DNA of 64,000 nt from Brachionus manjavacas (Eukaryota > Rotifera > Eurotatoria > Ploima > Brachionidae), in assembly GCA_019054805.1 (NCBI GenBank), contig JAHQIY010000014.1:2170001-2234000 (forward strand). The letters are read 5' to 3'. Below are positions 12,426 through 49,501 of this stretch, piece after piece. The notes below the pieces were generated by a model. The model saw only the letters and a list, made by a program, of their open reading frames with translations, searched no databases and was not told the origin of the DNA. Every line of letters starts with the position of its first letter. Position 1 is the stretch's first letter. A program made the position numbers and the translations under genes.

Positions 12426-15200
12426 ATGACTTTACGCAACCCGGGCAGTCTTGGTGCATTGGACAATAGAAACAGTGTTCTGCTTGCCAACGATCAAGTC
12501 GATGAGCTGAGAGAAAAATTTTTAAAAGTAAAAACCAAAATGCCAAAAGCCTTGAGCATTGGAATAGGTTAGAATTCTTAAGAGATTTATTTTTTGTTCA
12601 TTTTCTATAACAACTGTATCTTTGGTAAACTTTAAACAACTGATTAAGTTTTGAGCTTAAATATTTGCCACTTATTGTATGCGTATAAATTCTTGTGTGA
12701 AATCAGCGAGTCTTAAAATGGAAAATAATTTCATCCAAAAATCTTTGGCTTCCAGTCTGATGGTCAAATCGAACAGCTCGGTGAAAAATTGCCGCAGTTT
12801 TCTCAGTGTTTCTAGTCGCACTAGTCTGCACAGCAGCTCGAGCACCACTCTGGCCAAAAAATTTACCATCCAAGACCTAAAAATTAACATTAACGAGGCC
12901 CAGCTAGAAGAGTTTAGATGCATAATGCTCGAGGCTTTTAATAAAGTACGAATAGTCCGAGATTAAATTCCGGATATTCAAAAATTCTATCAAAAAAATA
13001 ATTTTTTTTTGCCTTTCTTTCTCCTTTAGTCTGACATTAATGGCAATGGCTACATTGAATTGACTGAGTTGAGAGAAGCTCTAAAGACAGTGGGTATTGA
13101 TATACCGGGCTATCAGGCAAGAACCATTGAGGATGAGTTCAAAAAAGGCGACAAGGGCCAAGACGGCAAGCTTAGTTTGGACGAATTTGAAAATTTGTAT
13201 TCAAGACTCAAGAGTGAAAAAGAAGAACGAACCTTTAAGACAAAAGTAAAGCCCATAAGCGGCACCACTGAAATCCGAAACAAGGAAAACGACTCAATTG
13301 TACACACAGTGAGACATTCAGAACAGTTGGCTTTTTCCAAATGGATCAATCAGTAAATTTAAACTGAATAAAATTTGAAAGTGAGAAAAAAAATATTAAA
13401 TTCAAATTTTTTCTAAAGAAATTTGGCTTTGGACTCGGACTTAAGCTTGTCAACAAATCCGATAAACCCGGAGACCAAAGATTTGTACACACGCTGCAAC
13501 GATGGTCTTGTGCTGTGCAAATTGATCAACTTTTCAGTGCCTAAGACAATTGATGAGCGGACCATAAACCGCGGCAAAAGTATCACCATTTATCAACAAT
13601 TGGAAAATTTGGAATTGGCTTTGAGAAGTGCCGAGGCTATCGGTTGTCATGTGATCAACATTCGACCAAAAGACATACGCGATGAAAAAGAACATCTTAT
13701 TCTGGGTCTGTTGTGGCAAATAATTCAAATTGGTCTCTTTTCCGAAATCAATTTGACTCATCATCCCGGTTTGGTCATGCTATTGAAAGACGGCGAGACC
13801 AAGGAAGATTTGCTCAAGCTTACCAAAGAAGAACTCTTACTTAGATGGTTCAACTACCATTTGGCTCGCTCTGGCTATTCGGGCCGTGAGGTAAAAAATT
13901 TCAGCGGTGACATTAAAGACTCGGTCGCCTACAGCCACCTTTTAAAACAAATATGTCCAGCTAATCATCAGCCCACAGTTACTCTAGCTCCATTGAATGT
14001 ATAAATACTATCTATCTTTGCTTTTCTATTAAGATTATTATTTTTTCTTTAGGAAAACGACTTGAACCGAAGAGCTGAGGCAATGCTGAACGAAGCTGAA
14101 AAGCTTAAGGCCAGAGATTTTGTCACTGCCAACGATGTGGTCTCGGGCAACCAAAAATTAAACATGGCGTATTTAAAATCATTATTTTTAATATAATTTA
14201 GACTTAAATAAAACCTATTAAGTTTTGTGGCTAATTTGTTTAACACATATCCGGCTTTGGATGTGCCCGAAGATGTTACCATTCAAGATGAGGATTTAAT
14301 TGAGGAGACTAGAGAGGAAAAAACTTACAGAAATTGGATGAATTCAATGGGAGTTAATCCTTATGTGAACTATTTGTACACTGATCTACAAGATTGTCTT
14401 GTCATATTCCAAGTAAATTACTTGAATCTATAGTTAACAAAAAAATTACTTTTATTTGAAGCTTTATGATATGATTAAGCCGGGCTCAGTTGAATGGAAC
14501 CGAGTTGTCAAGAAGTTTGTTCCTATCAAGATTAAATTTCAAAAGCTGGACAATTGTAACTATGCAATTGACATTGGCAAAAAAGTGATGAATTTTAAAC
14601 TAGTTGGTATACAGGGCTCGAATTTGTTAGATGGAGACAAAACATTTACTTTAGGTAATTTAAAAAAAAAATTTAAATTCATCTTTATTTTTTAAAAATA
14701 AAAATAAATCAAAAGCAAATTAATTAATTTTAAATTAAAAATTAATTTAAATTCAAATTAATTCAAATTAATTTAAAGCTTTGGTCTGGCAATTGATGAG
14801 AGCTTACACTTTGGCAATGTTGGCAAAAATTGCCGGTCAGGGTCATCCCATTGTGGAGAACGGCATAATAGAATGGACTAATAATAAGCTTAAATCGGCC
14901 GATAAAAAAACATTCATACAAAATTTTCAAGATCCAGCTATTTCGGACTCAAGAGTTATTTGTGATTTGATCGATGCCATTAAGCCGGGCTCAGTACAGT
15001 ACGATTTGCTTAAAAGCGAAAATTCCTATGAAGCCAAAATGGAAAATGCCCGATATGCTGTTTCAATTGCGCGTAAAATTGGAGCTCGTGTGTTCGCCTT
15101 GCCTGAAGATATTGTAGAAGTCAAACAGAAATTGGTAATGACCATATTTGCTACTCTAATGATCCAGGATTATCAGCCACAACAAATTTCTCTGGAATAA
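12426..15200 (+). CDS. PLS: plastin/fimbrin, actin-bundling protein
   Basis: Eight exons: 12426-12567, 12707-12945, 13030-13352, 13419-13998, 14053-14168, 14223-14412, 14462-14654 and 14779-15200. All junctions are GT-AG in matching phase, giving 734 aa. Two EF-hands ([12 protein letters not shown] and [12 protein letters not shown], residues about 130-200) confer Ca2+ control. Four calponin-homology domains follow (about 228-345, 376-490, 498-610 and 625-734), in which IDERTIN, ADVVSG-like [30 protein letters not shown] and [14 protein letters not shown] are plastin signatures. Two actin-binding domains let one molecule cross-link filaments in microvilli, stereocilia or cell cortex. Vertebrate plastins are about 630 aa; the excess is a roughly 120-residue Ser-rich N-terminal extension from exons 1-2. 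AATAAA at 15412-15417. Confidence 0.95.
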
Positions 15201-16820: not shown

Positions 16821-17464
16821 CATACATAGACAATGAACAAAGAACCCAATAGTTATTATAGATTCTTTTTTAAAAAAAAAATTTTTTTGTTATTTTTTGT
16901 TCTTTTTGGTTCTTTTTGGTTCTTTTTGGTTCTTTTTGGTTCTTTTTGGTTCTTTTTGGTTCTTTTTGGTTCTTTTTGGTTCTTTTTGGTTCTTTTTGGT
17001 TCTTTTTGGTTCTTTTTGGTTCTTTTTGGTTCTTTTTGGTTCTTTTTAGGTTTTTTTTGGTTCTTTTGAAGTTCTTTCAGGTTTTTTTTGGTTAGTCTTG
17101 GTTTTGGCGGATTGCGGGGAAGGTAAATGGGGTCCGGGGCGGAGCCCTGGTTTAGGGCTTCGGTTAATAAGACGATAAGGGAAGTCCTAGATTTCAATTG
17201 AGGCTTTCAAAAAGAACCATAAAGGTTCTTTTAAAAAAAGGAAAAAGAACCGATGATCATAAGTATAAAAAGTACAACGAACCAAAAAGAACCAAAAACA
17301 CCAAAAAAGAACCAAAAAGAACCTGAAAAAATCTGAAAGAATCAAAAATATTCATTTAGAAAATTTAAAAAGAACCTTACTTTTTTATTCGAATTGATTT
17401 ATACTGAAGTTTTGTTCTTTTTTTTAAGAGCACCTTAAAGAACCAACAAGTTCATTGTCTATGG
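16821..17464. mobile_element. foldback-type non-autonomous transposon with 10-bp tandem repeats
   Basis: The ends are inverted repeats: CATAGACAATGAAC at about 16825-16838 and GTTCATTGTCTATG at 17450-17463. The 11-bp word GTCATGTTTCT occurs directly outside both ends (16810-16820 and 17465-17475), as expected of a target-site duplication. The left arm is a tandem array of TCTTTTTGGT; the right arm carries the reverse complement (AACCAAAAAGAACC) in degenerate copies at about 17275-17330. The centre (about 17095-17180) is GC-rich and non-repetitive. This architecture, inverted arms built of short tandem repeats, matches the foldback (FB) class of DNA elements. No transposase. Confidence 0.7.
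16901..17040 (+). repeat. 10-bp minisatellite, 14 exact copies
   Basis: TCTTTTTGGT is repeated 14 times without error, followed by degenerate copies to about 17090. Both strands are open across it (Phe/Gly/Ser/Leu/Trp one way, Lys/Glu/Pro the other). Those frames are repeat artefacts, not genes. Confidence 0.95.
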
Positions 17465-19570
17465 GTCATGTTTCTATAGATAATGATAGAAATAGAATTT
17501 GAAAAAAAAAGATTTTTCTGAGTATTTTTAAATTATATATAAAATATACAGTGCCGGTATTATGTTTGTAAGAGTCCTCAGCTGTCATGTGATATGATAT
17601 CAGATTATATTAGCTGACAGCAAATGATATCAGGTATCAGATGATATCATTTTGTACCAATTTTTTTTTCCAAAACCGATATCAGCAGATATAAACTAAT
17701 AGCAAAGTCTTTCATTTTTTATTATTTTATTTTCGAAAATATTTCAAGTTTTTTTAAGAAGCAGAAGTAATAAGATTAGTTTTTTTTAGTTTGAATCTCA
17801 ATTTGGTATAAAACATCTCTTTTAATTTATACAATATATCATGACAGCTAGCTAAGATGGCCTTTTTGGTTTTTGTGATCTTCATGATATTTAAATATTC
17901 TTTTGGTGGTGGTACCTGATTTTAAATGACTGATCTTTTACTATCATGATTAAACCTTCCATCTCTTGTTCAAAATCAAAACTGCGAAGCCACTGCATAG
18001 ACGCCTGCTTTCGAACAAATGTTCTGTCATTTTTTCAAAATTATCATTATTATTTAATTGACAACACATCATTTTATATTTAAAATATATTAGTTAAGGA
18101 GAATAAATCAAAACAAATAAAAAATTGCAAAAAATAATATTTTCAAAAAATGATTTAAAAAATAGAATAAAGAGAAATTAATAAAAAAAATCAATCAGAT
18201 TATCAATTTAAATCTATCAATTTTCTATTTTTCTATTATTTTTAAAAATTTTTCTATGATTTGGCTTTCTACAATTTTTTTCTATTTCAATTGATTTTCT
18301 ACGTAGAAATATTTATTTTTAATATTTATTTTTTTTTTAATTGTCTAAGAGGCTTAAATCAGTAAGATCAAGCATGATATGAAAAGTTTTTTCGACAACC
18401 TTTTTTTAACGTTTCGAGTTTAAGTTCTAAAAAAATAAAAAGCATTAAATAAAAATAATAATTGAAAGTAAAAAGTGTTTTTTTTTTAATTTTTTAGTTT
18501 TACAAATTTTTCTTTGTCCATTTGCTTTGCTTGACTGTAGATGAAATTAAATTCAATTTTAAATGATTTTAAAATATTTGAATTAAAATAATAATTTAAA
18601 TGTTAAATTCGAATAAGATCTTTTTAATTCGATTTTTATATTCAAATTTGTAATTAATTTACATTTAAAAAAAATTTACTAAAATCTAAACCTCAATTAG
18701 AAAAAAATTTTTTGACCACTACCTTTCAAAGTCTTCATATTTGAGTGCATGATGCTTGTACTCTGAAGGAAATATCTAAGACAAAAATAAATAGATCTAA
18801 TAAAGTGTGCATATATTCTGAAAGCGGGGAAGATAATCGACAAAGCGGTGTGTTGAGTTTATATAAATTTGGTTTAGTTCATGTTTTACTATAAGAAAAA
18901 ACATCAAAAAAAGGTAATTTTTTAATAAAAACGAAACTAGTCCTCCAAAACACCATTTAGCCCATTTTTTTGTTTCAGATTCTGAAACTAGAGAAAAATC
19001 TGTACAATTCTTCGGGAGTATTTTTTCATATATTCTTTTTGTTTTTCTAATTTTTGAAGCAAAAATTCACCTATGTCTTGCTAGTTTAGTTTTTCACATT
19101 ATATTTTCCATTAAATCAAGACAAATATTAAAAAGTTTTGAAATTTTCAATTTTATTTTTTAAATTTAGCTTAGTATTATGTATTTATATTTGTATTTTT
19201 CATTTATTTATAAATATAAAATACAAATATTTTGAGTGTTAATGGTCTCGATTTTATTTTTTAAAATTAAATTTTTTTAAATACGGTTTAAAGGGATTTT
19301 CGAATTTGAGGTCGAACATCGATTCGGAAGATAGAAAAAATTATACTGCAGATTTCCCTACTACGACTATTTATTCTCTTATTAAAGCAAAAAAAAAAAC
19401 AAAGAAATAAAAGTTATTTTTTTTATTTAAATTTTAAAAAATTAAAAAAAATTGTTTCAATATTTTTTATTTTATTCAAAAATAATTAGAAGCAAAAAAA
19501 TTCAGGAAGCAAGAAGGGCATTGATGGTTACAATGAAAAATTGGCATGTTTAATAGAAAAATTTTTTTAG

Positions 19571-20002: not shown

Positions 20003-21259
20003 CTAAAACTCTTCTTCATCGTTGACCTCGAGCTCAGCCTGATGCTCGCTTTGGATCAAATCAGCAGTGTCAACACCTTCATCAGGCGCCACAAATCCAT
20101 CCGCAGTTGCATACAAAACATCCAGTATTCTCTTCAGCACAACCAAATTGTCGGCCTCGTACTCCTGACACAGCACTTCGATGTCCCTCAATTTGCCAAA
20201 ATAGAAATCTCTCTCCTTTTCCAGGCCCTCCAAGGTTATTTTCATCTCGTTATTTTCAGTCAACAGGCGCAGGTTGTCCTGCTGCAGCTCAACGTTAATG
20301 GCATTGTTGTTCTGGTTGATGCTTCCGTTCGACGTGTTATGCAATGATGATTTGGAGGTGTTGGCTACTGGCTTAGTGGGTTTTTGAATTACCTTGGCGG
20401 CCGGGACCGGCTTGGCCACCATCGGCTTGGCTTTGGCGGCCATGGCCGCGTGCATCTTTGTCTCGCTGGCAACCAGAGGCAGGCCGTCGCGCGCTGCCAG
20501 CGGGTCATAGTCCTTGCCGTCAAAATTGGCATCGAAAAATTTCTTAAACCACTGGACGAACTCAAAATTGTCCTGGAATCTTCCCTTGACCAGCTTTTCG
20601 ACAGGAATTATCTTTATTTGAGAAAAAAAAGGGAAAAAATTAGTCAGGTTTTCTGCTAGATTTAAAAGTTTCTCATGCAGTTAATAAGTTAAATGTTAAT
20701 TGATTAGTTTGTGTGTACCTTATCAACGCCGCATTTTTTAAAACAATTTTGCAGCATTTTAAAATTTTGAATAAACTCGTGCTCCAGTTTAGCATCGATT
20801 TTAGCTCTCTTTATGGCAATTGAGCCTTAAAGTGGAATTGAAAAAAAGATTATTAGTCGCCCTAAAGACCCTACAGGACAAATCAACCAAGCTAGAAATC
20901 TAGACGCCAAAATTCATACAAACCTTGTCAATGCTGACTTTTTTAAATCCTTCTTGAAGACATTTATAGTTATTTATGTACTCGTGCTCGAGCTTAGTGT
21001 CCCATTTAACTTTTTTCATTCGAATCGAGCCTAGAGGAAAACAATTAAATGATTGATTTGTCGATTGCTGCTGGATCGGTTCTTGGTGCATTCACTTACC
21101 TGGAAAGAGCATGTCCATGAATTGACAATAGGCGCTGCCCGTGCACAACTCCTCCACTTTGGTCAGATTGGTCCTGAGCGTGTCATTGATCCAGTTGAGT
21201 ATTTCGTGTCTGCTCAGGTTTTCTGAAGTCACGCTGGTGCTGTATACGTTGACGGCCAT
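20003..21259 (-). CDS. MAPRE: EB1/MAPRE microtubule plus-end-tracking protein, two alternative CH exons
   Basis: Exon 1 is 21100-21259, then either exon 2A (20924-21030) or exon 2B (20719-20825), then exon 3 (20003-20611). Each isoform is 291 aa (human EB1 268). The start [19 protein letters not shown] is the family start. Residues 1-130 form the calponin-homology domain that binds the growing microtubule end. A low-complexity Ala/Lys/Pro linker follows, then the dimeric EB-homology coiled coil with [17 protein letters not shown]. The tail ends in EEEF, the acidic-aromatic motif read by CAP-Gly proteins. Exons 2A and 2B are each 107 nt with identical phases (1 in, 0 out), so using both would break the frame. 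Exon 1 ends at FPG, as in other EBs. TTTATT (AATAAA on the minus strand) at 19924-19929. Identification is firm; alternative use is inferred from sequence alone. Confidence 0.93.
20719..20825 (-). other. MAPRE: EB1 alternative exon 2B
   Basis: Encodes [20 protein letters not shown], then [15 protein letters not shown], aligning without gaps to exon 2A and to the same segment of other EBs. Acceptor TTAAG at 20826-20830, donor GTACAC from 20718. Separated from 2A by 98 nt. It carries two extra cysteines and KR in place of KK. Confidence 0.85.
20924..21030 (-). other. MAPRE: EB1 alternative exon 2A
   Basis: Encodes [20 protein letters not shown], then [15 protein letters not shown], the fourth and fifth helices of the CH domain. 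Acceptor CTAG at 21031-21034, donor GTTTGT from 20923. Retains the KK pair equivalent to microtubule-contacting lysines of human EB1. Confidence 0.85.
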
Positions 21260-33772: not shown

Positions 33773-36700
33773 TTAGTCTCCGAATTGGAGTATGGGATCA
33801 GATAGATCGGGAAAGCCGAGACTGTCGCCACCAGGACCAGGACCTAGGCCCATTTGCTGCTGCAGCGAGTTGATCTCTTGATGTGACTGCTGCTGCTGCT
33901 GATGTTGTTGTTGTTGTTGTTGTTGTTGCTGCTGCTGTTGCTGTTGATGATGCTGCGATTGCTGATTGCCAGAATTCTGCAACATTTGAGGTAAAACCTG
34001 ATTTTGCTGATCGCCAGGATTGTAGTTGTTGTTGTCGTAGTTTTGCTGAGCATTTTGAGAGTGTTGATTGTGGATGGCGGCCTGGTTGGCATATTGTAGG
34101 TGGTGAGGCGGCGGTGGCGGCATGTCAAACGGCTGATTCGGGTGCATAGGCCGCATCATAGCCATGCCATTGGGCATCATACCGGGCGGCATCATGCCCG
34201 GCTCCATGGGCGGCCTGGGGCCCATGTGCATTGGATGCATGGGCCTGGGTGGACCGTTGCCGAACTCGTTGTGGTGTGGCGGCGGCGGACCCTGTGCATA
34301 CATTTGCTGTTGTTGCTGGTCGATTGGATACTTTGGGTTGTTGATCATTTGCATCATGTTGTGAGGCGGTGGCGGCGCCGGTCCGTTCATCATGATTCCG
34401 TTGGGCATCATTTCGTTTTGCCGCGACTTGCTCCTGTGTTTGGGGTAGTCGGCAGGCATGAATTCGCCAGGCGGCTGCGGCGGCGGTGGCAGTCCATTTT
34501 GGAACATAGGGTCGGAGTCGGCGGGGGCGCGCATCGGCCTGAAATTGGGCGCGTTTTGAGGCGGAAAGCGCGGGCCCATTAGACGCGGATCGGCCATGCC
34601 CGCATGATGGTGATGGTTGAGCATGTGCGGCGGTGGCGGTATCATGTGCGGTGGCGGCGCTCCTCGATGCATGCCGTGAGGCGGCGGTGGACCCATTCCC
34701 TCCATCATCATGCCCCGCTGCATCATCTCCTGCTGCTGCTGCTGCTGCTGCATTTGTTGCTGCTGTTTTTTGCTCATTTTGCCATTTTTAATCGGTCCCA
34801 TTGGCGGCATGCCTACTTGCTGCTGCTGCTGTTGTTGTTGTTGCTGTTGTTGTTGCATGAGAATGTGTGGTGGTATGCCCGGAGGCGCCTGTTGTATTAT
34901 GGCCGATGGAGACGAGGACATTTGGGGATGAGAGGCGACGCTGAATTGAGGATGATTGAGAGCGGCCGGCGATTTGGCGTTCGAGTACGGCGATGCCTTC
35001 GGTATCGAGTTGGTCATTTGGAGCATTTGATTTAGAGGTCCGCTGGCGCCGTTCATTGCTGGCGATTGACTGTTCGTGTTGTGGTTGTTGCTGTTGTGGT
35101 TGCTGTTGTGGTTGTTGTTGTGATTGTTGTTGTGAGGCGAGTTGACACTTTGGCTGTAGTAGTCCAATTGACTGTTGGATAGAGATTTGTTGATGCCGGG
35201 CGTTTTGCGCGATTGTTCGCCTGTGCACGTGTCCGATGCGGACGCCGACTGATGATGAAATTGATCGGCGTCGTTGTTATTGTTGCTGCTGTTGTTGTTG
35301 CTGTTTGACTTGTGGTGTTTGGTGTTGTTGTTGTCCGAGGTGTCGTCGTTTGGCGACGATCCATTCAAACAATTGATGATATTTGAGTTTTGAGCGGACG
35401 GTGGTCGAGCCAAGTGCTTTTCTTCGTCGCCAACACCGCCGCCTCCACCACCAGCACCACCACTCGACTTAAAGCTCAAATTAAGCTGTTTGGTAATGGT
35501 AAGCTCTTGGCCCTCGAGTTCAAAATAGTTCATTAGCTGAGGACTGGGCGTTGTTTGTAGACCGGTGTTTAGAGAGTCGACTGCCGGCGACTGACCGCCG
35601 CTCTTCACTTTATCGGTGTACTTTTCGGGCATGCCGGCTTTGTGCATCTTGGGCTTGAGGGCATAGGGCGGCGGTGGTCCCTGCTGCTGCTGCTGAAGCG
35701 GCTGTGACACATAGTTCATCATTGAGGGATTAAATTGGTCGATGGGATAGATGTCGCCGTTGGCAGTGAAGGGCGATGGAGCGCCGCTGCCCGGCACTTG
35801 ACCTGGCGTGTTGGAAGAGCGAGCGCGTTTTGCGCCAGGCTCTGGCGGCATTTGACCACCGCCGCCGCCACCACCAGCGCCACCGCCAACACCAACACCG
35901 CCGCCACCAATGCCAATGATAGACGAGAGATTTTTGAGCTTGCCCAGCTTTTCAGTGCGAGTCTTGAGCTGTTCGACAGTCAAGTGTTCGTTGGGCACTG
36001 GCAACGGCACGCCCGCAGCCCCGTTCGGCCGCATCGATTGCTGCTGCTGTTGTTGTTGTTGTTGTTGTTGCTGTAGCTGCTGTTGCTGCTGCAGCTGATG
36101 GTGATGATGATGATGATGAAAATTGCGCATGAAGTCGATGGTGGCGGGCATGTTGCGATGAAAATCGATTATGGATCTGTGGTGTTGGCGTGTGACTGAT
36201 TGAGCGGCCTCGTTGGCTATTTGAGTGGTAAATACGTGAACAAAAATGGGCTGTTGTTGTTGGTGTTGTGGCGGCAGCGGCGGCGGTAGCGCGTGCTGCT
36301 GGTGCTGCTGGTGCTGCTGCTGCTGCTGGTGCTGCGGATGATGAGGTGGTACGCCCTGCAAGTTGGCGGCCTCGTTCGCCTCGAATTGACGGTGATAGTG
36401 GAGCGCGGCCGGCGACTGATTGGCGTGTGGAGTCGGCGGCTTGGCTTGCATCGGCGACTGAATCGGCTGATGGGTCATGGGCGACGCCTGCTGCACCACG
36501 CCGCCACAGCCGGGGCTTTGGGTCTGACCGGCGCCGTTCTGATGCTGCTGCGGCTGCATCATGTAGGGCGATTGCAGCTGATGGTTGAAGGCCGGCGACG
36601 CGACTCGGTTAGGCGTCGGCTGACGGTTCGACATCGGCTGCTGCTGCTGCTGCTGGTAGGCTATTTGCTCGTTCGAGTTTGTTTGATCGGCAGTGTCGAC

Positions 36701-37258
36701 ATTGTGTTGGTCTTGGTCTTGGTTTTTGTCGGTGTCGAGCAGAGAGGAGGCGGCCGCCGCGTCAAAAAAGTCCTCGTTAAAATCGGCGCTGCTCGCGTAC
36801 TTCATGTCCTTGGCTTTGGACTCTTTGGACGAGGTGGAGCCGGCCGACTCCGAATCGGATATGTTCTCGAAGGCGAGCTCGTCCAGCTTGCGCTTTTTGG
36901 ACGAGGTTTTTTTGGGCGAGCCCACTGAGGCCTTCAAGTTGGCGTCGGCCAACGGAAAGTTTATGTTTATTGAGCCGAGGTCCAGCGAACCATTCGAATT
37001 GTTCAAGTTAATGGTCGAGTCGTTCAGGTCGTTTAGATTTATGTTCACTTGGTTTAGAGTCGAGTGGTCGAGGTCAGGCGCTGAAAATTGGTCGAGCAGG
37101 TCCGTCGACTGGCTTGTCGAGGACGTGCTCGACGTTGTGGTGACCGACGGTGCCGTCGTCGCAGTCGTCGTCGTCGTCGTAGTCGTAGCCTGTTGCGCGT
37201 TCGAGCCCGACTCCAATTGATTTGGCTGATTGTGCCCGTTCTCCATTATGTCATTCAT
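33773..37258 (-). CDS. BCL9: BCL9/Legless-like Wnt coactivator, single large exon
   Basis: 1161 aa without an intron. BCL9/Legless links beta-catenin to Pygopus on Wnt target genes in the nucleus. HD1 (Pygopus PHD binding) is at residues about 337-370: IFVHVFTTQIANEAAQSV and IIDFH. HD2 (beta-catenin binding helix) is at about 424-447: LTVEQLKTRTEKLGKLKNL. A GPPPPY motif follows at about 526-531, as in BCL9, then FELEGQELTITKQLN at about 578-592. A nuclear signal SSKKRKLDE is near residue 120. The rest is low-complexity: polyQ blocks (about residues 200, 310, 385-407 and C-terminal), polyH, polyG, polyT and Pro/Met-rich repeats. HD2 is diverged from the vertebrate sequence, so orthology rests on HD1-HD2 order and context. 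Start is the first Met after a GT-microsatellite-rich leader. Frames on the opposite strand are repeat shadows. Confidence 0.8.
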   Translation of the reverse strand: MNDIMENGHNQPNQLESGSNAQQATTTTTTTTATTAPSVTTTSSTSSTSQSTDLLDQFSAPDLDHSTLNQVNINLNDLNDSTINLNNSNGSLDLGSININFPLADANLKASVGSPKKTSSKKRKLDELAFENISDSESAGSTSSKESKAKDMKYASSADFNEDFFDAAAASSLLDTDKNQDQDQHNVDTADQTNSNEQIAYQQQQQQPMSNRQPTPNRVASPAFNHQLQSPYMMQPQQHQNGAGQTQSPGCGGVVQQASPMTHQPIQSPMQAKPPTPHANQSPAALHYHRQFEANEAANLQGVPPHHPQHQQQQQHQQHQQHALPPPLPPQHQQQQPIFVHVFTTQIANEAAQSVTRQHHRSIIDFHRNMPATIDFMRNFHHHHHHHQLQQQQQLQQQQQQQQQQQQSMRPNGAAGVPLPVPNEHLTVEQLKTRTEKLGKLKNLSSIIGIGGGGVGVGGGAGGGGGGGQMPPEPGAKRARSSNTPGQVPGSGAPSPFTANGDIYPIDQFNPSMMNYVSQPLQQQQQGPPPPYALKPKMHKAGMPEKYTDKVKSGGQSPAVDSLNTGLQTTPSPQLMNYFELEGQELTITKQLNLSFKSSGGAGGGGGGVGDEEKHLARPPSAQNSNIINCLNGSSPNDDTSDNNNTKHHKSNSNNNSSNNNNDADQFHHQSASASDTCTGEQSRKTPGINKSLSNSQLDYYSQSVNSPHNNNHNNNHNSNHNSNNHNTNSQSPAMNGASGPLNQMLQMTNSIPKASPYSNAKSPAALNHPQFSVASHPQMSSSPSAIIQQAPPGIPPHILMQQQQQQQQQQQQQVGMPPMGPIKNGKMSKKQQQQMQQQQQQQEMMQRGMMMEGMGPPPPHGMHRGAPPPHMIPPPPHMLNHHHHAGMADPRLMGPRFPPQNAPNFRPMRAPADSDPMFQNGLPPPPQPPGEFMPADYPKHRSKSRQNEMMPNGIMMNGPAPPPPHNMMQMINNPKYPIDQQQQQMYAQGPPPPHHNEFGNGPPRPMHPMHMGPRPPMEPGMMPPGMMPNGMAMMRPMHPNQPFDMPPPPPHHLQYANQAAIHNQHSQNAQQNYDNNNYNPGDQQNQVLPQMLQNSGNQQSQHHQQQQQQQQQQQQQQHQQQQQSHQEINSLQQQMGLGPGPGGDSLGFPDLSDPILQFGD

Positions 37259-46400: not shown

Positions 46401-48212
46401 CATTTTCTAAGAGATTGCCTAATCAGTGGTCAATTTTACAAATATTTAATTTTTTTTGCTTCATAGAGCAATGATTCAGAGTAGGTTCTGAGAGGAAGTT
46501 TTAGAATGCATCTAACAGCAGTATTTTGAATAACTTGTAACTTTTGTAAACCTGATCCGGAGACTATTTTAATTTATTAATTAAATTCTGTTCGAGCCAA
46601 GGCTCCTTTATTTATTTATTTAAAAAATGGTTTGGGAGTAAATCCCGGGAGCGTCCGAATGGCACTTAGCCTTCGTTTGAGCCTTTTTTTTTGAGTAAAT
46701 TATAATTAAAAAAAAAAAATTTTTGATAAAAAAAAGTGATTTAAAAAATGTTGTCCAGAGGAGTTTTGAAACGTTTGTGTTCTATTGAACTATCGTTTAA
46801 AGAAAAAAAAAAAAAGTTTCTGTGAGTTAAATATATTTTGAATAGATGGTCAGTTAACGAATGTTAATAATAAGTTCAATGTAAGGAAAAAATTCATCAA
46901 TCAGGGGGTATAGACCACACAATGGATTTGCAAAATTGCATATTTCTTTAGGGCTAATTACAGCTTTATATTCTTTTGCTAGTCTAGTTACCGGAGGTAC
47001 TGAGTTTTGATATGGTTCTCACTGAGATCAAAAATACGATTGTCTATCCTATGAGTTTTTAGTTTATCCAAGGCTAGATGGTCAAGTTGTTCTAGGAAAG
47101 TGTCCATTTTTAGTTTTAATATTGAACGTATAGCTGTATTTTGAATAACTTGAAGTTTCCTATCAGACTCATTTGAAAGTAGATTTAAGCATGGAAATGA
47201 GTAGTCAATGATTGATCCGATTAGGGCTTTATAAAGTGTACTTAGGGTGAATTGACTACGTCCCCATCTTTTGTTAGGTAATATTATAATTAAGTTTAAT
47301 CTTGAGTTACATTTCTTTACTATTGCTTTAGATTCTAGAGATCAGAGTATTGCACAGTGAAACTATGGACATTCAAGTTGACTGGAGTCGAACATGCAGC
47401 TATTAAGAAATCTACAATGTTGGGGTTTTAGCGCAAGTTAAGTGCGACCGGCGGATAGGCCAGTCTTTTGTTTGAATTTTTTAGAAAGTTGAGTTGGATT
47501 TTTAAAAAAATTTTGTGTTAGATGTTCTACAGCAGACGGCTTAGGCCAAAGCGAACTAGAATCCGATTAAGCACGGAAATATTCCAGTTAATCAATGACA
47601 GAATTAACAAAAAAAACAACAACATCAAGCAAACACTTATCGAATTAATCCGAGTAAAAATTCGGCAACATGAGCCGTGCACACTGGAATGAAAAGGAAT
47701 GCAATGCAAATAAAACACTTACCAGAAGTTTTTTGGATTTTGACACATGGCTTTTGGTGCGCTTTGAGCACACAGCGATCAAAGCTTGTTTCGTCCTCGT
47801 TAGTCTCATTGTCCTCGGAGTCGTCGGGCTTGTTGTCGGGCTGGAGCGTGCGCTTGAGCGCCATTATGGCCTCGCACGACGTGCCGTACAGAACACTCAG
47901 TTCCTTGGCCTCGTTCTCCTCCTGGGCCTGTTGTCTTCTGAGCGCGACCTGCGCCGCCATCACCCGTTGTCTCTCGGCAATGAGAGTGCACTTGGCACAG
48001 TTGCAGTCCTTCCACTTGCAGTAGCGTTTGTGGCCTTTTAGAGTGGACACGACGCCGTGGTTTCGGCAGCGGGCGCACTTGGGCGTGCGCTGGTACTTTT
48101 CGGAGGCGCGCATGAACAGCGCCTGTGGCAGCGCAGGAAACGACTGCGCCATTGGAGCTGGATCGGCGTCCACGTGACCATTCTTTCCCACATGCATGCT
48201 TTTCGATTCCAT
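43429..48212 (-). CDS. DMRTA-like (Dmrt4/5, dmrt99B type) DM-domain transcription factor
   Basis: Two exons, 47723-48212 and 43429-44165, joined in phase 1 (408 aa). The DM domain (residues about 43-92) has [20 protein letters not shown] and [20 protein letters not shown], the intertwined CCHC/HCCC zinc sites plus the recognition helix; the continuation [20 protein letters not shown] matches DMRTA1/A2 best. DM factors bind DNA in the minor groove and control sex, neural and germ-line programmes. I start at ATG 48210-48212; the upstream frame begins only with TTG. Exon 2 encodes a Ser/Asn/Ala-rich tail with polyalanine ([19 protein letters not shown]) and no recognisable DMA domain, which DMRTA proteins normally carry. 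It may be lost or reside in an unseen exon in the 3.56-kb intron. TTTATT near 43351 for polyadenylation. Confidence 0.9.
45216..45345. repeat. 130-bp inverted-repeat element
   Basis: TGCAACATGGTGCAAAGTTG at the left end mirrors TGCAACATGATGCAGCATAC (reverse complement of the right end); both arms finish in GTTGCATTT. Short MITE-like element with about 25-30-bp imperfect arms. Confidence 0.5.
46035..46080 (-). repeat. hairpin-plus-A-rich-tail repeat (copy e)
   Basis: On the minus strand ATCTGAAGAAGCTTATGCTC then GAAAAGAAAAACAAATAAAT. Confidence 0.5.
46440..46565 (-). mobile_element. LINE reverse-transcriptase fragment
   Basis: Minus strand reads [20 protein letters not shown] then [14 protein letters not shown], the LQ.IQN.A.R.IL motif of the LINE RT C-terminal region. 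5'-truncated; adjacent to hairpin copy f. Confidence 0.7.
46570..46612 (-). repeat. hairpin-plus-tail repeat (copy f)
   Basis: Minus strand AAATAAAGGAGCCTTGGCTC then GAACAGAATTTAATTAATAAA. The stem here is GAGCC/GGCTC, longer than in copy a. Confidence 0.5.
46988..47341 (-). mobile_element. LINE reverse-transcriptase C-terminal fragment
   Basis: About 118 codons without interruption: [17 protein letters not shown], then [50 protein letters not shown] and a stop at 46988-46990. LYK.LI.S..DYS.P and LQ.IQN.A.R.IL.L are diagnostic of the thumb/linker of non-LTR RTs. Same family as the 46440-46565 fragment by shared [12 protein letters not shown]. Confidence 0.8.
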
Positions 48213-49501
48213 AGTCGTGGCCAAATTCAAATAGTTTCAAAACGAAATTTGGTTTCTTTTCAAATTCTTCGAACACAAAGAGAGTGAGAGAATTAAAAAA
48301 ACTTTGAAAAAAAAAAAAAGAAAAAATTTTAAATATATTTAAATTGGCTGAGTAAAGAAAGAGTTGCGCACAAATAAAACAAAAAGGTGAATGGAAATGG
48401 ACTGGCGCGGTTTGCTTTGCCAGTTTGTGACGATTATTAAATTTTTAAAACAGTTTTTGCAAATGAAAAAGAAAGAGAGAGAAAGAGAATTTTTTATTGT
48501 AAGTTGAGCAGGAATTAAAAGAATAACTAAAACGAGAAAGGATACGAGAATAATAATAAAAAAAAGAAAAGAGAAAAACAAAAAAGAGAGAGAGAGAGAG
48601 AAAGAGAAAGAAAAAAATACTTATTTGAATATCAAATTAGATTTTAGAGTAGCTATTTTATTTATTTGCTCAGTTGGATTTTGAGTACGGCGAATAGAAT
48701 TTGGAATAAATTTTGCTATGTTTCGAGTTCTAATTTGGATTGGCTTTGTTAATTGGATTTTAAATGAGGATTTTGTGTTTTTTCCTCTCGTCTACTAACC
48801 AATTATAAAAAAGATATATTGGGGAGAAAAAAATTGGATTTTAGTGTTCAATTTCAGTACAAGTGCGGCACACAATCGAATGGCACTAGAGATCGCCTCA
48901 ATTAAATATGTCAATTGCACTATGCACTAGTTAGATAACTAATTTTATAATAAAATATTTAGTCTTAAAATATTGTGCCACAAAATTGAGCAAAACGTTA
49001 TTCTAGACTAATTTGTCAATCAAATCATTTGTTCAAGTTGGAGAATTATTCAGAGGAAAAAAAGCACCACTCTTGGATTAGATTGAGGCTTGTCAAGAGC
49101 ACACGTTCAGCACCACAAGTTTCTTCCCAGACACAATCTTTAAGTGGTTTGATCTTTTTTTTTCTAATTCAGCTAGGCACGTCTCTTTTTGGCGTTGTTG
49201 TTGAATCTTAAAAAATGATCAATTTACATCATTTAGACTTGAACAAAGTTGCGACCACATCTTGACACAAAGCCAAATAAAGGCCATTCAAAATATGCTG
49301 TGTTAAAATAGCAGATAGAAATTGAATTCATAAATTTTTCCAAAAATTAAATTTATCTTTGACTTTAAATGAGAAAAAATTTTTTGAGCAACTAATAAAA
49401 ATAATTGGCTTTATTCATTGCTAATTCAATAATGTCTTTTATATTCCGACTGTGGAATTTTATTCAACCTAAACTATGTTGAACGTTGCAAAAAGCTGTG
49501 T

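Follow-up and report, generated by a model that had tools for sequence, protein, structure and literature searches.

The EB1 gene of the rotifer Brachionus manjavacas appears to carry a tandem duplication of one internal exon, such that each mRNA would take either copy A or copy B and the gene would encode two EB1 proteins of 291 residues that differ at 15 of 35 positions within the CH domain, the choice between the copies being one that may be steered by a helix formed between two introns; we give this reading a probability of roughly 0.8. The gene lies on the minus strand of a 64,000-nt stretch of DNA, referred to below as the window (G+C content 28.9%), which was placed on contig C14 of a 114-Mb assembly of 61 contigs, and its four coding exons follow one another in the order exon 1, A, B, and exon 3 (Table 1). 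EB1 travels on the tips of growing microtubules, where EB proteins serve as a hub for the loading of other factors. If the reading is true, two natural CH-domain variants that are otherwise identical would offer a clean test of those 15 positions, and exon duplication would do here the job that is done by gene duplication in vertebrates.

Table 1. Features of the EB1 gene and of its proposed intron helix, in window coordinates
Feature	Position	Strand	Description
EB1 exon 1, coding part	21100..21259	-	Residues 1-53 and first base of codon 54; human EB1 match starts at residue 1
Intron 1	21031..21099	-	69 nt, GTAAGT...CTCTAG
Intron-1 arm GACAAATCAATCA	21050..21062	-	Probable branch-site region of exon A; one arm of the 13-bp helix
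Alternative exon A	20924..21030	-	107 nt, CH-domain residues 54-89
Intron 2	20826..20923	-	98 nt, separates exons A and B
Intron-2 arm TGGTTGATTTGTC	20877..20889	-	Second arm of the 13-bp helix; proposed docking site
Intron-2 segment CGACTAATAATCTTTT	20844..20859	-	Probable exon B branch site; resembles the intron-1 segment, possible duplicated flank
Alternative exon B	20719..20825	-	107 nt, CH-domain residues 54-89
Intron 3	20612..20718	-	107 nt
EB1 exon 3	20003..20611	-	Remaining CH domain, linker, EB1 C-terminal motif, acidic-aromatic EEEF end, stop codon

The coordinates given in the original prediction proved exact to the base: two 107-nt exons of equal phase, each with its own GT/AG signals, lie 98 nt apart. 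Within both of them two bases finish the codon begun in exon 1 and are followed by 35 whole codons, which makes 36 residues when the shared glycine is included, and the three introns (69, 98, and 107 nt) are GT...AG in 3/3 cases. The combinations exon 1-A-exon 3 and exon 1-B-exon 3 are each open and encode 291 amino acids. Double inclusion, which had been expected to shift the frame, does so: it brings in a stop at codon 94, located 92 nt ahead of the last coding junction, and the skipping of both copies leads to a stop at codon 70, within exon 3. Only the single inclusion of A or B yields a full EB1 protein, and both or neither breaks the frame.

Judged by its sequence, the gene is an EB1 gene of the MAPRE type. 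Human EB1 heads the PDB matches, covering residues 1-269, with bit scores of 336 for isoform B and 334.5 for isoform A, followed by EB3 and, lower, by Bim1 and Mal3. The CH domain (PF00307) is recognized at E values of 1e-12 in isoform A and 1.5e-12 in isoform B, and the EB1 C-terminal motif, or EBH (PF03271, residues 219-257), at 1.7e-16 and 1.4e-16, respectively. Members of the EB1/MAPRE family typically end in an acidic-aromatic C-terminus, EEY/F, and the protein encoded here ends in NDEEEF. With the family at large (human EB1 and EB3, yeast Bim1 and Mal3) it thus has in common the CH domain, the linker, the EB1 C-terminal motif, and the acidic-aromatic tail, whereas it departs from that family in possessing, within one gene, two versions of the exon for residues 54-89.

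This gene is also apparently the sole EB gene of the genome. A six-frame search of the assembly with the EB1 C-terminal family returned one match, and the isoform-B protein, searched against the 114-Mb genome in six frames, gave 4 listed matches at E values up to 1, all of which belong to this gene (exon 3, exon 1, B, and A). No second EB locus was found by these six-frame searches, in which the best candidates were scored (8/8) and which a very diverged paralogue could escape. In contrast to mammals, which have three EB proteins (PMC6398475), no paralogue was listed here among the best candidates of the six-frame searches. Scans of viral and prokaryote contigs, one each, gave 10 and 38 pattern matches, with 0 relatives by tblastn; no Rfam family was matched in the window, and a spliced-leader sequence of bdelloid rotifers is absent at up to 2 mismatches.

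The two copies are alike beyond chance, since the isoform-B query finds exon A at E = 8.3e-6 in a search of the whole 114-Mb genome. They share 72/107 bases and 20/35 residues, and over the alternative exon A is identical to human EB1 at 22/35 residues and B at 24/35. At the 15 positions where they differ, the human residue is present in A alone at 4 (60, 61, 71, and 81), in B alone at 6 (57, 65, 73, 75, 86, and 87), and in neither at 5 (58, 63, 77, 80, and 85). The changes between the copies fall on 17/36 third positions vs 18/71 of the others (Fisher P 0.030), and the ratio dN/dS is 0.25 by NG86 and 0.43 by maximum likelihood, each figure resting on 35 codons only. The pair has accumulated ~1.1-1.4 synonymous changes per site, yet there is no stop and no length change in 107 nt. 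To this we added a simulation of a neutral relic, in which one copy drifts freely and the other keeps its protein, run 4000 times in each of 16 settings (either copy as the ancestor, at eight divergence levels), a run being counted when it was free of stops, kept 20 or more identical residues, and had 17 or more third-position changes; the unchanged length and the preserved splice sites lie outside these criteria and count on top of them. In none of the settings did the fraction of runs that reproduced the A/B pair by neutral decay exceed 0.0025, and long neutral decay of one copy is rejected. The arrangement of the exons and the constraint on their coding sequence are observations, from which we infer that the splicing of A and B is very likely mutually exclusive. 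Of the proposal that the gene makes two proteins, the analysis supports the EB1 identity, the tandem exon duplication, and the single-inclusion architecture, with the use of both exons a probable further step.

One might still suppose that the gene makes one EB1 and that A or B is a dead copy which enters the mRNA seldom if at all, a view that the splice signals of exon A favor to some degree. Its AG-exclusion zone contains a single yUnAy match, TTAAT, at a distance of 14 nt from the 3' splice site, so that its 3' end looks weaker than those of exons B and 3, where CTAAT stands 27 and 28 nt away; the 5' splice site of A, GTTTGT, has no A at +3, where the other five introns read have one; and human EB1, when aligned to the locus with splicing allowed, took exon B over A. 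Set against these signals are the intact 107 nt, the near-equal scores of the two isoforms against human EB1, and a neutral drift that gives such a pair in at most 0.25% of runs, and we regard a dead duplicate as quite improbable, with a copy out of use since recently only being a possible variant of it. It is also conceivable, if unlikely, that the locus undergoes ordinary alternative splicing, in which both, one, or neither of the exons is used and the out-of-frame forms lower EB1 output in the manner of a poison exon. The 98-nt intron is of spliceable length, the neighboring introns in the plastin and fucosidase genes being 54, 54, and 68 nt as inferred by spliced alignment; the stop after double inclusion precedes the last coding junction by 92 nt; and the branch candidate of exon B, CTAAT, lies 71 nt from the 5' splice site of exon A, above the threshold of ~50 nt cited for that distance (PMC7969005). 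A poison exon, however, needs no two copies that both keep their protein sequence, and it is the mutually exclusive use of A and B that we prefer.

As for what might enforce such exclusion, crowding of the splice sites was judged an unlikely cause, because introns of 54-69 nt are read here and the 98-nt intron is longer than the three read in the neighboring genes. The AG at position 61 of intron 2 likewise speaks against a more distant branch point for exon B, as it would intervene before the 3' splice site. Incompatibility involving the minor spliceosome was judged unlikely by eye, the three introns being GT-AG and lacking motifs of the U12 type.

A further candidate is a helix between introns 1 and 2, which would pair positions 38-50 of the former with positions 35-47 of the latter in 13 consecutive pairs, one of them G-U. 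Among 2000 dinucleotide shuffles a fraction of 0.005 attain its energy (0.015 once three tests are allowed for), as do 28/2000 equally spaced segments of real window sequence (0.014); neither of the other intron pairs stands out (P 0.76 and 0.76), with no counterpart helix between introns 2 and 3 (P 0.76). When whole duplexes are tested, the pair formed by introns 1 and 2 has P 0.026, the lowest of ten segment pairs. The intron-1 arm falls within a stretch that is like the branch-site segment of exon B (CGACAAATCAATCATTT vs CGACTAAT-AATCTTTT; local alignment score 17, a score reached by 0.052 of 500 shuffles), whereas no such likeness links the flanks 3' of the two exons (0.302 of shuffles score as high), which suggests that the duplicated block took in the upstream flank and that the helix covers the branch site of A. 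The total pairing between introns 1 and 2 is matched by 9/300 sets of shuffled introns, and the pairing of the branch segment by 0/300 shuffles, this segment having been chosen after the helix was seen. In models of transcripts of growing length, the central-pair probability is 0.91-1.0 at seven 3' ends, from 20876 to 20696, and takes values of 0.68, 0.20, 0.62, and 0.001 in the four longest (last end 20576). In the fold of the full 581-nt region the helix has a pair probability of 0.001-0.002, and that region folds no better than its shuffles (z -0.78, with 18/100 at least as stable). Taken as a model, a helix that covers the branch site of exon A and loops A out is suggestive.

There is about an even chance that the helix is fortuitous and that exclusion is set by splice-site strength, by proteins, and by the decay of wrong products alone. 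Its near-absence from the full-region fold, together with the examination of three intron pairs and ten segment pairs, speaks in favor of chance, whereas the rarity of such an energy in both shuffled and real sequence, and the position of the helix over a segment that resembles the branch site of exon B, speak against it.

On the reading in which A and B are exclusive, we envisage that tandem duplication copied an ancestral internal exon and, probably, some of the flank upstream of it, and that a single mRNA would carry A or B and so give rise to two EB1 proteins identical outside the middle of the CH domain. A product containing both A and B would have an early stop well placed for nonsense-mediated decay, and one lacking both would have a broken CH domain, so that the frame rule by itself could clear the wrong products. 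Where the helix forms, A would be hidden and B used; where it opens, A would become available. Such an arrangement invites comparison with the docker-selector RNA structures, which have been proposed to arise by exon duplication (Ivanov and Pervouchine, PMC6071210). Features in common with those structures are complementary intron segments around the exons and an intron-1 arm that resembles a second copy near exon B. In the present gene, however, it is the middle intron that holds the common arm, and a second pairing, between that intron-2 arm and the branch segment of exon B, is weak (-5.3 vs -15.4 kcal/mol for the helix), which leads us to picture a one-sided switch. The locus resembles the docker-selector origin proposed there, with the switch at most a candidate for the class.

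Tandem mutually exclusive exons are in themselves well known (Dscam, muscle myosin, alpha-actinin, and U2AF1, among others), and A and B are likewise adjacent, of equal length and phase, homologous, and equipped with their own splice sites. Equal length, phase, and homology of neighboring exons are the criteria of Pillmann et al. (PMC3228551), and tandem-duplicated exclusive exons are known in cytoskeletal genes, for example the actinins (PMC9741552). As far as we have seen, what is new is their presence in an EB CH domain, in a genome with one EB gene found. No EB gene with mutually exclusive or duplicated exons was present among the best-ranked literature matches in open-access main texts, an absence that is weak, and no such gene appeared among the best-ranked matches, again in open-access main texts, for rotifers with EB1 or mutually exclusive exons; the earlier statement that the arrangement is not described in animals accordingly holds within those texts and matches, and no wider. 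Alternative splicing in an EB1 gene is shared with zebrafish mapre1a, for which sex-biased splicing has been reported (PMC9501657); the forward RT-PCR primer given there, which we translated as KLVKGKF, falls 3' of residues 54-89, and the report probably concerns another part of the gene.

With regard to what the two isoforms might do differently, the original prediction had pointed to cysteine content and to the KK/KR microtubule contacts as a source of unequal end affinity. The differences themselves are there, with 1 cysteine in A and 2 in B, and K59-K60 of A standing as K59-R60 in B. An affinity difference at these contacts, on the other hand, is on weak footing, because the net charge (K and R less D and E) is +4 in A and in B, the residues H69, K76, and K89 are identical, and K60R is a conservative change. 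The three residues are of interest from work on Mal3, in which charge reversal at K63 or K76, or the substitution Y56A, weakens microtubule binding and Q89A raises lattice binding (PMC3368265). At an inferred offset of 13, Mal3 K63, K76, Y56, and Q89 correspond to EB1 K76, K89, H69, and Q102; the alignment of the Mal3 chain 5mjs_D begins with an offset of 12 and finishes with one of 13, so that a gap falls somewhere in between, and the larger value is preferred because lysine then falls on lysine twice. On this mapping H69, K76, and K89 are the same in both isoforms and Q102 lies in the constant exon 3, and the variants are therefore alike at the mutation-tested contacts. Both isoforms are expected to retain the CH fold and to bind the ends of microtubules.

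Any functional difference would perhaps come through small packing changes or through the hydroxyl residues that we find in A only (T65, Y71, Y75, and S86). In mammalian EBs, small CH-domain substitutions that preserve charge shift the zone of binding, and I90V, K100R, F105L, and E106D are implicated in setting mammalian EB2 apart from EB1 and EB3 (PMC6398475), which makes subtle tuning of the CH domain a reasonable expectation; the constant part of the present protein has I90, R100, F105, and E106, with the EB2-type residue at 100 only. Residue 71 is Y in isoform A and F in isoform B, and since Y71 is listed among the modified residues of human EB1 (PMC10470552), a difference in modification between the isoforms can be put forward as a guess. 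An AlphaFold model in which isoform A was aligned with B (pLDDT 36, pTM 0.23) was set aside. The broader idea that a lone EB gene supplies an animal with two plus-end trackers through an RNA switch born of exon duplication, as a splicing substitute for the EB1/EB2/EB3 gene family, is one that we hold as tentative and rather doubtful.

Several other observations were made in the neighborhood of the gene. A plastin/fimbrin gene, which encodes another CH-domain protein, lies near EB1 at window positions 13423-15200 on the + strand, with plastin-3 as its PDB match and two inferred introns of 54 nt. At 17000-17470, ~2.5-3 kb past the 3' end of the EB1 gene, short units resembling AGAACC/GGTTCT are repeated, as judged by eye. 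Two open frames on the - strand lie farther off: one of 1161 codons at 33773-37258, very rich in runs of glutamine, asparagine, histidine, and proline, and one of a DM-domain (DMRT-type) transcription factor (PF00751) at 47637-48230. The DM domain, together with a granulin, marks the organism as an animal. Elsewhere in the same assembly, a 1.22-Mb contig (G000:C21) contains at 119055-123401 a 667-aa open frame of the COX1 family, the one family tested there and its single hit, beside frames of 300 and 217 aa that by eye resemble oxidase subunits II and III, so the contig looks bacterial, from a symbiont or a contaminant.
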